From the NCBI RefSeq assembly GCF_003416765.1, contig NZ_QSNG01000001.1:894742-958741 (forward strand): a stretch of 64,000 nucleotides of DNA. The letters run 5' to 3'. Position 1 is the first letter of the stretch, and each line of letters begins with the position of its first letter. Position numbers and translations under genes: made by a program. Below the pieces are notes generated by a model, which was given only the letters and a program-made list of their open reading frames with translations, was not told the DNA's origin and did no database searches. Below are positions 42,245-45,796 of this stretch, one piece after another. Source of the DNA: Paratractidigestivibacter faecalis. Lineage in GTDB: Bacteria > Actinomycetota > Coriobacteriia > Coriobacteriales > Atopobiaceae.

Positions 42245-42619
42245 ATGAACCTTCGCCTGAAAGAGCGCAGGGAGTCCCTAGGGCTTACTCAACAAGAGTT
42301 GGCAAAAAAGGTTGGAAAGTCCTTCAGGACTATTCAATCTTGGGAACGCGGCGAGAGCTATCCAAACGCAGAGTTCGTCGTTGTCCTCTGCAAGATATTT
42401 GATATTGATCCAAACGAACTTCTCGGCTGGTACATAGATCACCCCGAGGATAGGCCTGTACCTCTAAAGCCTGATCCTTTGGCATCGGAGCTAGTCAGTT
42501 GCTACTCGCAGTGCACGGTTGATCGTCAGGCCGCGCTCATCCAGTACGCGCGGGATGCCGCGCTTGCATCGGGAGAGACGGTCGAATGTTCTCAGCTTCG
42601 AGCTGGCAAGGCTAGCTAA
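42245..42619 (+). CDS. CI-like XRE-family repressor
   Basis: 124 residues. N-terminal HTH: RRESLGLTQQELAKKVGKSF, RTIQSWERGESYPNAEFVVV; a short C-terminal helical part. There is no peptidase S24 domain, so release is more likely by the antirepressor than by RecA-stimulated cleavage. Less GC-rich than the late genes. AGAAAGGA precedes the ATG at 42245. Confidence 0.85.
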   Translation: MNLRLKERRESLGLTQQELAKKVGKSFRTIQSWERGESYPNAEFVVVLCKIFDIDPNELLGWYIDHPEDRPVPLKPDPLASELVSCYSQCTVDRQAALIQYARDAALASGETVECSQLRAGKAS

Positions 42620-42652: not shown

Positions 42653-43516
42653 ATGGGAAAGTTGCTCGACCATCTAATCAAACTGTGCGATTCGTCCAAA
42701 CGGGAAAGCACCAAGAAGGTAATCTCCGTTGACGGAGACGAGGAATGCACCGTCTACGTCTATGACGAGAAGCCGTTAGCAGCAATACGTAAAGGACAAG
42801 AGTTTTATGTAGATGTCCTTCCACGAGATACGGCGCTGCGCAGTCGCTCAACAGGCGCCGTGACAAATACGAGAGAGATGAAATGCGCTGCCCTCTCATA
42901 CAACGGTACAGTTTTTGGCTCGACTTCCTTTTCTCTCAATGTGTTAAAGGATATGAGGAATAGCGGGTTCGAGTTCAAACTTAAGGTCAAAAAGACAGGG
43001 ATGTACTCTCGTTCGGTACCCGAGCTCGTTTCAATGACAGTAGAGCCTCGGCTCATTAACCTTTGGTGGTCAATGAGGAATGAGTCTCATGAAGATATCC
43101 CATTAGATATTGAACTTATAGAGAAAGAGCGCGAGTCGCGCAACGCAAGCATCAAGTCAGAGCGCATTGCGAAGAGGCTTGGCGTAAGAAGAGGTTCCTT
43201 CGACAAAGAGCTTCGGTTCTACGTAGACAAGTCTTGGCCTACGAACGTGACGTTCCCCAGAACCAAAAGGTCGTTTGTCCCCAGTTTTGAAATCGTTCCA
43301 CCGAAAAGGGGGTCAAAGGCGAAACCTCACATCGATGTGTATGAGGGCAATACCGTTCTGTTTAGCGTATCCGCAAGACACGGCGACAAGTACCGAGAAA
43401 TGCTCGAACTTCTCGATAAGCCATGCACCGCAGTCCTAATTGCTGATTTCTACCAGGACGGAGATCTGGATAACAAAATGCTGTTCTTGCTCTTCAAAGT
43501 CGAAGGCGAACAATGA
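42653..43516 (+). CDS. Unknown protein in the lysogenic operon
   Basis: 287 residues, not recognised. A conserved-looking N-terminus KLLDHLIKLCDSSKRESTKK, a beta-rich middle and a C-terminal HIDVYEGNTVLFSVSARHGD segment. Codon use is much more AT-rich than the rest of the window. Transcribed after the repressor, so it is likely expressed from the prophage; a lysogenic-conversion or defence function is possible. Confidence 0.6.
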   Translation: MGKLLDHLIKLCDSSKRESTKKVISVDGDEECTVYVYDEKPLAAIRKGQEFYVDVLPRDTALRSRSTGAVTNTREMKCAALSYNGTVFGSTSFSLNVLKDMRNSGFEFKLKVKKTGMYSRSVPELVSMTVEPRLINLWWSMRNESHEDIPLDIELIEKERESRNASIKSERIAKRLGVRRGSFDKELRFYVDKSWPTNVTFPRTKRSFVPSFEIVPPKRGSKAKPHIDVYEGNTVLFSVSARHGDKYREMLELLDKPCTAVLIADFYQDGDLDNKMLFLLFKVEGEQ

Positions 43517-43594
43517 ATGCGCTGCTCTCGGGACCGGTTGCCGAACGTGGTGCGGTTTCGGAGGCGGTGTAGGTGATGGGATTCTGGTGACGGC

Positions 43595-43623
43595 TCGACA
43601 CCGTGACGGGATTCGGGTATATT
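43595..43623 (+). promoter_or_regulatory. Promoter upstream of the Abi locus
   Basis: TCGACA (43595-43600), 17-bp spacer, TATATT (43618-43623). A transcript starting near 43630 would contain the two hairpins at 43638-43694 before the Abi_2 gene. Confidence 0.55.
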
Positions 43624-43629
43624 TGGCGG

Positions 43630-43694
43630 CGTGATGAGGCCCGGCGACGGTACGTCCGGCCGGGTCCGAGAAGGCCGCCCTACGGGCGGCTTTT
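43630..43694 (+). ncRNA. Candidate small structured RNA upstream of Abi_2
   Basis: Two hairpins: 43638-43666 (outer stem GGCCCGGC/GCCGGGTC, inner GACG/CGTC, two-base bulge) and 43674-43690 (GCCGCCC/GGGCGGC, loop TAC) followed by TTTT. The second is a good terminator, so a ~65-nt RNA would be released 22 bases before the Abi_2 start. AbiF-type genes are known to be linked to a small structured RNA; identity with that RNA is inferred. Confidence 0.5.
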
Positions 43695-43716
43695 CTCGTA
43701 TTAAGGGGGCAATCCC

Positions 43717-44637
43717 ATGGACAAGCCATTCAAGACGATAGACGAGCAGGTTGCGATTCTGGAGTCGCGCGGCATGCGGACGGATGCAAAGACCCCGTCC
43801 ATCCTGCGGCGCGAGGGCTACTACTCCGTCGTGAACGGTTACAAGGCCCTGTTCCTCGACGGCTCCGGCGCAGACCGCTATCTCGACGGTACGACCTTCG
43901 ATGACGTCTACCGGCTCTTCACGTTCGACCGAGACCTCCGCATGACGATGATCAGATACTTCGCCCAGGCGGAGGCCGCCCTGAAGACTGCCTGCGCGTA
44001 CCAGTTCTCCGAGAGGCACGCAGGAGAGACGGAGGCCTACCTGAACCCCCTCAACTACAGGCGAGACAACGGCTACCGGCGCAAAGTGCGCGACCTGATA
44101 GAGGACTTCAGGAAGGTGCTCCACAAGGGCGACTACGACAGGGGGCCGTTCAAGCGCGAGTACATCGAGCACTACGTGAGGAACCATGACGAGACGCCTC
44201 TTTGGGTTCTCACGAACTTCCTCATGCTCGGTCAGATATTCAAGTTCTACGAGTACCAGACCGACAGCATGCGGAACTCGATTGCCAAGTCCTTCTCCGA
44301 GCTCTACGAGGAGTCCTACGGGACGCGGATTCACATAAGCCCGAGGCAGCTGAGACTGGCCTACGACCACATCAAGGACTTCCGCAACATCTGCGCCCAC
44401 GACGAGAGGCTGTATTGCGCGAGGGTGTCCCCAAGCCGGGACGTCACCTTCGCCAACCTCCTGGACGACCTCTCCCTAGTGCTCACCAAAGAGGAGAACA
44501 CGAGGATGCAGGCCGAGGTGATTCACCTCATCCACGCGGTCTTGAACGACCTTGGCCCAGACGTCGCGCTGCCGGTCCTTGACGCGATGGGCGTAAAGAG
44601 CCTCGAAGACACGTTCTTCTCGATTACCGGCAAGTAG
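43717..44637 (+). CDS. Abi_2-family abortive-infection protein (AbiD/AbiF-like, HEPN)
   Basis: 306 residues. KTIDEQVAILESRGMRTDAK, LRREGYYSVVNGYKALF and YRLFTFDRDLRMTMIRYFAQ are Abi_2 signatures. The C-terminal DFRNICAHDERLY has the HEPN ribonuclease R-x4-H motif. Such proteins cleave RNA to block superinfecting phages. AAGGGGGC precedes the ATG. It stands between repressor operon and integrase, a usual moron position. Confidence 0.9.
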   Translation: MDKPFKTIDEQVAILESRGMRTDAKTPSILRREGYYSVVNGYKALFLDGSGADRYLDGTTFDDVYRLFTFDRDLRMTMIRYFAQAEAALKTACAYQFSERHAGETEAYLNPLNYRRDNGYRRKVRDLIEDFRKVLHKGDYDRGPFKREYIEHYVRNHDETPLWVLTNFLMLGQIFKFYEYQTDSMRNSIAKSFSELYEESYGTRIHISPRQLRLAYDHIKDFRNICAHDERLYCARVSPSRDVTFANLLDDLSLVLTKEENTRMQAEVIHLIHAVLNDLGPDVALPVLDAMGVKSLEDTFFSITGK

Positions 44638-44722
44638 GCACCGACATCAACTAATCGACAGACCAGCGCGCGGCGCCCGCATCGGCGGGGCCGCGAGGAC
44701 AACCATACCGATTGGAGGCACC

Positions 44723-45796
44723 ATGGCACGGCAGAGGTCGAGCTTCGGCAGCGTCACGAGGATGGGCCGCGACCACTACCGGCTGCGGTGGTGGGCGGAC
44801 ACCCCCGAGGGCCGCAAGCGCCTCACGGAGATGTTCGACGGCACCCGCCGCGAGGCGGAGCGGCGCATGGCCGAGATTCGCGTGGGGACGAAGGAGCGCC
44901 GGTGCCCCACCCTGGGCGAGATCTGGGAAGAGCACGAGCTGCCCCACCTGGTCAAGATGCGCGGGGAGGACCGCATAAGCGAGCGCACGCTCCAGGCGTA
45001 CACGCGCAGGTGGGAGGCCGACGTGGCCCCGAGGTGGGCCGACGTGCCCGCCGACATGGCCCGGCCGGCGGACATCCAGGAATGGCTGCTCACCATGACG
45101 CGGAGCATGGGAGAGCTGTCGAAGGCGGTGCTGTCGCTCACCTACGAGCGCGCGGTCATGCTCGGCATCCTGGACGCGAACCCCTGCGCGCGCAGGTACG
45201 ACCTGGGGCCCGCCACCAGGCGGCCCAAGGTGGCGTACACGCCCGAGCAGCTCGACGAGGCGTGGGAGGCGGTGCGCGGCACGGTGGCCGAGGCGCCCTT
45301 CCTGCTCATGGCCCACGCGGGGCTGCGGGTCGGCGAGGCGTGCGGAATGCGCACGGCCGACGTCGAGCCACGGGAGGGCTGCGCCGTCCTGCACGTCAGC
45401 GCGCAGCTGAGGCAGGACGGCGAGGTGAGCGAGCGCATGAAGACCGCGGGCAGCCGCCGCACCGCGGTCATCGAGGAGCCGTGGGCCTCGCGCGTGCTTG
45501 AGCTCGCGGGCGGGACCTACGTGAACGAGCGGCAGGACGGCACGCCGGTGCCCTCGCGCACCGTCACCGACCGCTGGAAGAGGTGCGTCGAGGCGGCGGG
45601 CCTGCCCGTGGCGCCGATGCAGTGCCTTCGCCCGAGCTACCAGACGAACCTGCACTGGCAGGGCGTGCCCATCGAGCAGACGAGCCGGCTTTTGGGCCAC
45701 ACCGCCACGAAGATGACGCTGGAGAACTACGACCGCCCCAGCGACGACCAATTGGTTAACGTGGTGCTATCGCACGGCGTGGTCGCGAGCACTTAG
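44723..45796 (+). CDS. int: Prophage integrase (tyrosine recombinase)
   Basis: 357 residues: AP2-like arm-binding domain (SFGSVTRMGRDHYRLRWWAD), core-binding SAM-like domain, catalytic domain with Arg in HAGLRVGEACGMR, box II MQCLRPSYQTNLHWQG, LGHTATKMTLENYDRP with the catalytic Tyr. Box II has Gln where the usual HxLR histidine is expected. Lies 51 bases from attR, so it is the cognate integrase. GGAGG precedes the ATG. Confidence 0.92.
   Translation: MARQRSSFGSVTRMGRDHYRLRWWADTPEGRKRLTEMFDGTRREAERRMAEIRVGTKERRCPTLGEIWEEHELPHLVKMRGEDRISERTLQAYTRRWEADVAPRWADVPADMARPADIQEWLLTMTRSMGELSKAVLSLTYERAVMLGILDANPCARRYDLGPATRRPKVAYTPEQLDEAWEAVRGTVAEAPFLLMAHAGLRVGEACGMRTADVEPREGCAVLHVSAQLRQDGEVSERMKTAGSRRTAVIEEPWASRVLELAGGTYVNERQDGTPVPSRTVTDRWKRCVEAAGLPVAPMQCLRPSYQTNLHWQGVPIEQTSRLLGHTATKMTLENYDRPSDDQLVNVVLSHGVVAST

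Follow-up and report, generated by a model that had tools for sequence, protein, structure and literature searches.

Toxin-antitoxin systems of type III, ToxIN among them, are laid out as an RNA antitoxin gene, a terminator and a toxin gene, in that order. The ToxIN antitoxins are tandem repeats, and its toxin is not a HEPN protein. Units of AbiF and a small RNA have been described as ancestors of Cas13. A report on C. difficile describes RCd22, an RNA that acts in trans, binds AbiF directly and neutralises it; it mostly terminates before the AbiF gene, with some read-through past the terminator (PMC12373285). Another report shows PbAbiF as an RNA-bound dimer (PMC12737573). For the RNA side of AbiF units, what is known here comes from a single Rfam motif and a small number of characterised systems.

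We analyzed a 64,000-nucleotide stretch (the window) of the 2.1 Mb genome of Paratractidigestivibacter faecalis, in which a first-pass annotation had proposed an AbiF-like HEPN gene with a terminator-ended RNA upstream. Pfam and PHROGs matches place the AbiF gene within a prophage, flanked by its regulator region on one side and its integrase on the other. On the 5' side are an HTH regulator of the prophage lysogeny region (42245..42619, + strand; HTH_3, 60 bits) and a gene for a 287-aa protein (42653-43516) with no match in Pfam, PADLOC, PHROGs or NCBIfam. Directly 3' of AbiF, at the prophage end, is a tyrosine integrase (44723..45796, + strand; PF00589, 49.8 bits; PHROG 1). The same prophage end was present in two IMG/VR contigs, whose AbiF proteins are 100% and 99% identical to that of the window. 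The nearest named AbiF relatives are from Coriobacteriia (Atopobium, Collinsella, Adlercreutzia, Slackia and Senegalimassilia). Among relatives from Streptococcus phages, the slot repressor - AbiF - integrase is also occupied in Javan119 and, but for one small gene in between, in IPP16. Both loci have hairpins upstream of AbiF, and the Rfam search of these two gave no abiF match.

The AbiF gene (43717..44637, + strand) encodes 306 amino acids and is preceded by a ribosome-binding site, AAGGGGG (43703..43709, + strand), read from the sequence. Its product matched PF07751 (Abi_2) with 133.2 bits over residues 29-233 (gathering score 25.6) and PHROG 2158 (abortive infection resistance) with 209.7 bits. 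PADLOC labeled it AbiD (142.3 bits), and the NCBIfam search with this protein gave no match. Alignment of the class A proteins, the clade of the window protein, located the HEPN RNase motif at R223-N-I-C-A-H228 (44383..44400, + strand); this RNICAH has the R-polar-xxx-H form and is unchanged in all ten aligned class A proteins. The predicted structure (pLDDT 82, pTM 0.79) aligned with the PbAbiF-ncRNA complex 8vz6 over 265 residues (Z 21.4, rmsd 2.6, 23% identity), and 8vz6 was the sole Foldseek match below E 0.001 (E 1.2e-8). The rows after 8vz6 in the structure comparison were Cas13d chains at Z 7.0-7.8, a likeness that may reflect only a common arrangement of helical proteins. The window protein is an AbiF HEPN protein, a member of the Abi_2 / AbiF-AbiD HEPN family; Pfam, PADLOC (as AbiD), motif and fold agree on the earlier naming of the gene. 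The gene is predicted to be an RNA-cutting suicide gene of the AbiF kind.

A scan of positions 43400-44800 revealed a sole promoter-like site, the sigma-70-type promoter TCGACA-17-TATATT (43595..43623, + strand; one found against 0.4 expected from shuffles), with a predicted transcription start at 43630 or 43631. The small RNA that follows, here called class A AbiF RNA, spans about 65 nt (43630..43695, + strand). Near its start is a conserved 5' strand, GUGAUGAG in the window and GUGAAGAG in relatives (43631..43638, + strand; alignment A3, below), the last G of which is paired within hairpin 1. Hairpin 1 (43638..43666, + strand) comprises an 8-bp outer helix, a 2-nt 5' bulge, a 3-bp helix CGG/CCG and the loop UACGU, and is the presumed AbiF-binding element. 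Hairpin 2 (43667..43698, + strand) is terminator-like and holds TTTT (43691-43694) inside its 3' arm. A structured RNA with its own promoter lies directly 5' of the toxin gene, with a terminator, the conserved hairpin 2 with its T4, between the two. From the RNA end to the AbiF start codon at 43717 there are 22 bases. The promoter, two hairpins and T4 that the first-pass annotation placed between the gene of unknown function and Abi_2 are all present, and an RNA of about 65 nt ending 22 bases before the start codon, as it proposed, fits the hairpin coordinates. The T-tract is short, which counts against the toxin-antitoxin reading preferred below; a simple, strict terminator scan did not list hairpin 2, whose few Ts are in part base-paired. 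A search for the core pattern GTGANGAG-N9-CGGTACGTCCG gave a single hit in the 64 kb of the window and no hit in 100 shuffles.

Folding was compared with that of shuffled sequences. The 66 nt at 43630-43695 gave z -3.0 (one of 200 shuffles as good), and the terminator hairpin by itself gave z -3.9. For hairpin 1 by itself the value was only z -1.7, and a wider stretch of 117 nt had just a small advantage over its shuffles (z -1.1), as might be seen if these were chance hairpins in GC-rich DNA. Folding energy alone would therefore not settle the RNA.

Conservation did. Comparison of the upstream DNA of 12 AbiF relatives revealed a block common to 11; the exception, from Solobacterium (L013), has a different RNA upstream. 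Alignment A1 holds these 11 relatives and the window (12 rows), chosen by protein before any RNA model was made, and RNAalifold returned two hairpins from it. Pairing is kept in 96.6% of 262 cells, with double-sided changes in 13 of 24 pairs, and the covariation score is 0.522 against 0.275 when shuffled (0 of 500 as high) and at most 0.177 for slid versions. In the larger alignment A3, which leans towards structure because 11 of its 22 rows were picked by covariance model, 95.0% of 525 cells pair, 14 of 24 pairs are changed on both sides (7 of 11 in helix 1, 7 of 13 in helix 2) and the score is 0.503 against 0.253 shuffled. A covariance model built from A1, named R1, matched the window at 43626-43702 with 86.9 bits, a value that follows by construction, as the window is among the rows of A1. 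In 19 of 22 class A rows, the spacing between the end of a -10-like hexamer and the first aligned base is exactly 6 nt; therefore, the RNA begins at or beside GUGAUGAG. Covariation beyond 500 of 500 shuffles and every slid version, together with bimodal R1 scores, refutes chance hairpins, whose probability we consider virtually nil. The class A RNA-AbiF unit was found in differing surroundings across loci, so the RNA is not merely conserved flank. By this comparative evidence, the two-hairpin RNA is real. The first-pass annotation had named missing covariation in relatives as grounds for giving up the RNA, and pairs in both alignments do covary; its upstream, terminator-ended RNA is also borne out by the fixed promoter spacing and by a search of IMG/VR with a protein-independent class A DNA pattern, which returned two contigs with AbiF next in both.

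The same block could be read as a leader peptide (GUG AUG AGG ...) in place of a structured RNA, as most rows show no interruption of this frame, which reads GTS at the loop. Against this, third positions are not where variation is concentrated (mean entropy 0.64, 0.86, 0.71), a stop occurs in one row and a frame-breaking deletion in another, and covariation explains the sequence changes. We rejected the peptide as extremely improbable on the codon-position entropy, the stop and the frame break.

The covariance search with the Rfam abiF model that the first-pass annotation suggested was negative, and a separate model, R1, had to be built. RF03085 gave no match in the window at the gathering score (37 bits) nor up to E 10, and none in eight class A loci (L003, L004, L005, L007-L011). 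Over the 396 Coriobacteriia genomes that we searched, it scored above the cut-off in 7 and at E<=0.1 in 55. Reading the two lists against each other, 15 of the E<=0.1 matches lie closely upstream of AbiF places, where the proteins are all at most 32% identical to that of the window. Sub-threshold matches, such as those to DicF (23 bits against a cut-off of 48) and RNAI (22.8 bits against 47), were rejected, the shared GGCGG...CCGCC stem being taken as chance. Judged by the covariance search and by fold, the window RNA is not RF03085 but a separate family that Rfam does not recognise; thus, Rfam-based annotation misses the RNA of the window's AbiF clade. The arrangement of an RNA before AbiF is already known, and it is the RNA family that is new to Rfam. 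None of the papers listed by our literature searches was seen to name the class A type; Zilberzwige-Tal et al. (AbiF/Cas13), cited in that literature, may describe such RNAs. Separately, an RF03085-like RNA of 34.5 bits (below cut-off) lies on the reverse strand of L017 (1501-1535); no AbiF was present among the open frames of this 3-kb locus, and the RNA is perhaps an orphan of the RF03085 type.

We took 124 AbiF loci from class Coriobacteriia, three of them without a usable hit, and assigned RNA types by search expression and by eye: 14 are class A, 32 are RF03085-like (class C) and the other 75 are B1, B2 or without RNA. Class B RNAs likewise form a hairpin plus a terminator, with an AGUGA or AGCGG start, an outer helix, a 5' bulge and a short helix capped by UACG(U); the likeness of this layout to class A is partly by reading, because RNAalifold did not recover the outer helix on B1. 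In a tree of 110 AbiF proteins, the window's class A forms one clade (11 rows, SH-aLRT 98) and so does B2 (11 rows, support 92), and the RNA-type labels require 11 changes compared with 61.4 when shuffled. Coriobacteriia AbiF genes carry several RNA types, each tracking a protein clade. A further clade of 20 proteins (L100, L101, L104, L105, L109, L114-L116, L119-L123, L125-L131) has no RNA visible upstream, with the HEPN-like motif intact in 20 of 20; therefore, the RNA is not always needed.

Within class B (L030-L046, L086-L118), the 5' end (e.g., GGCAGUGA) is complementary to the 5' arm of the terminator, with apparent double-sided changes by eye in some rows (e.g., L088, L113, L117 and L118), and may form an antiterminator or a closing stem. 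We do not claim an antiterminator shared with class A, where the complementarity is unconserved and, in the window, the GGCGGC available for pairing precedes the predicted transcription start. Two IMG/VR contigs (L196, L197) carry the class B pattern with AbiF directly after it, 64% identical to L033.

Over the 396 Coriobacteriia genomes, R1 gave 23 matches of at least 55 bits, one of 37.8 and the rest at or below 30.7; matches below 31 bits there, and those of 12-19 bits elsewhere in the window, were taken as noise. Over 396 genomes of the phylum, for which the share outside the class is unlisted, five matches had E<=1e-5, all in the window's order. Twelve of the 24 RNAs precede an uninterrupted AbiF (G172, G365, G000, G269, G231, G280, G256, G224, G059, G312, G140, G272), seven a broken AbiF or a stub (G187, G032, G368, G183, G035, G178, G014), and five have no AbiF directly after them (G299, G268, G260, G328, G352). 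In G299, the DNA after the RNA is 72% identical to a stretch of a Collinsella locus with AbiF, about 3 kb beyond the RNA of that locus; such an arrangement is consistent with AbiF having been lost and the RNA retained. Further Abi_2 genes or fragments are present at other sites in G299, G260, G268 and G328, and Pfam detected no Abi_2 in the genomes of G014 and G352. In G328, a RhuM gene (PF13310, 335.8 bits) lies immediately 3' of the RNA, and beyond it is an integrase-like frame whose 20.9 bits fall short of the cut-off (22.6). In G178, the order is RNA, a 20-codon AbiF stub, RhuM. RhuM is described as a proposed toxin domain (PMC3710099).

Several of these loci have further features. The loci in which the RNA precedes RhuM are L063 (1501-2581) and L064, which lies on the reverse strand and keeps 20 AbiF codons between RNA and RhuM. 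In two loci from different genera (L047 in G187, L065 in G368), the AbiF reading frame shifts near residue 155-160, and in L069 the AbiF match ends near residue 135 and a transposase-like frame then follows. RNA copies without AbiF directly after them occur in genomes of one genus, g40 (L057/L182, L060/L107, L061/L181); 3' of these copies are a HigA-like protein (46.7 bits, cut-off 47.7), an MqsA-family antitoxin (91.9 bits) and an unnamed frame.

The 5 of 24 RNAs without AbiF directly after them, one of which leads RhuM, and the 20-protein clade without a visible RNA count against strict pairing of RNA and AbiF. Such copies without AbiF, and a weak resemblance to DicF, would suit a phage regulatory sRNA that acts on other transcripts and merely adjoins AbiF. 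We regard this as very improbable, as the unit also occurs in surroundings without an adjoining integrase frame and every uninterrupted class A AbiF that we met had the RNA, although the AbiF gene (920 bp) is also a larger target than the 65-nt RNA. A purely cis-acting attenuator, in which the hairpins would only set the level of AbiF mRNA and the RNA would have no role in trans, agrees with the terminator hairpin and single promoter, with the clade that does without RNA and with the same RNA standing before RhuM in G328 and G178, as if it were an exchangeable leader. The RNAs without AbiF and the two of 24 before RhuM, one with the AbiF stub between, would suit a plain attenuator equally. We consider it unlikely, because hairpin 1, with its fixed loop UACGU and its 5' strand GUGAUGAG, shows more conservation than termination requires, RNA type tracks protein clade, and the C. 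difficile RNA works in trans (PMC12373285). Because RhuM replaces AbiF in two genomes and takes the position ahead of an integrase-like frame that AbiF would occupy, the class A RNA might be a module re-usable with other effectors, one that may attenuate or even neutralise unrelated toxins, with RNA-only copies giving immunity against incoming AbiF elements; we offer this as a doubtful idea.

Our preferred reading is that the locus is probably a type III-like RNA-protein toxin-antitoxin unit beside the prophage integrase, in which the RNA would bind AbiF and the terminator would limit read-through. The single promoter would yield a short RNA that stops at the terminator hairpin, 22 nt upstream of the AbiF start codon. 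Between RNA and AbiF we saw no further promoter; therefore, AbiF should arise only by read-through. Free RNA would bind the AbiF dimer via hairpin 1, with its 8-bp helix, 5' bulge and UACGU loop, and block the HEPN RNase site, while termination at hairpin 2 would keep toxin mRNA scarce. On phage infection, loss of the RNA supply or increased read-through would release AbiF, which would then cleave RNA and halt growth and so protect the population or the prophage. We infer RNA binding and AbiF toxicity at this locus from RCd22 and AbiF of C. difficile. Restraint of AbiF by the RNA is most likely, going by the C. difficile and Prevotellaceae AbiF (PMC12373285, PMC12737573). The analogy rests on position and partner rather than RNA homology, because RF03085 fails to match.

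One AbiF clade is thus linked to a sister RNA family with a different fold, whereas its neighbors have further types or none. It can now be tested how antitoxin RNAs and AbiF toxins swap partners in step, and how one AbiF clade lives without an RNA.

Compared with ToxIN, with its tandem-repeat antitoxin and non-HEPN toxin, the window locus has a single RNA unit and a HEPN toxin. It shares with RF03085 RNAs a short hairpin RNA upstream of AbiF, followed by a terminator, but those have a 3-bp helix, an 11-nt loop and six unpaired nucleotides on the 3' side, whereas the window RNA has a 5' bulge and the loop UACGU. Its AbiF has the same fold as PbAbiF (PDB 8vz6) at 23% identity, a comparison that covers the proteins. 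With RCd22-AbiF of the C. difficile phi027 prophage (PMC12373285), it shares an Abi_2/AbiF protein, the HEPN motif, a place on a prophage and a layout of own promoter, terminator-ended upstream RNA and read-through into the gene, the last as predicted for the window. RCd22 has two RF03085 motifs and lies in the lysis module, whereas the window RNA, of about 65 nt, has one hairpin of another shape and lies beside the integrase.
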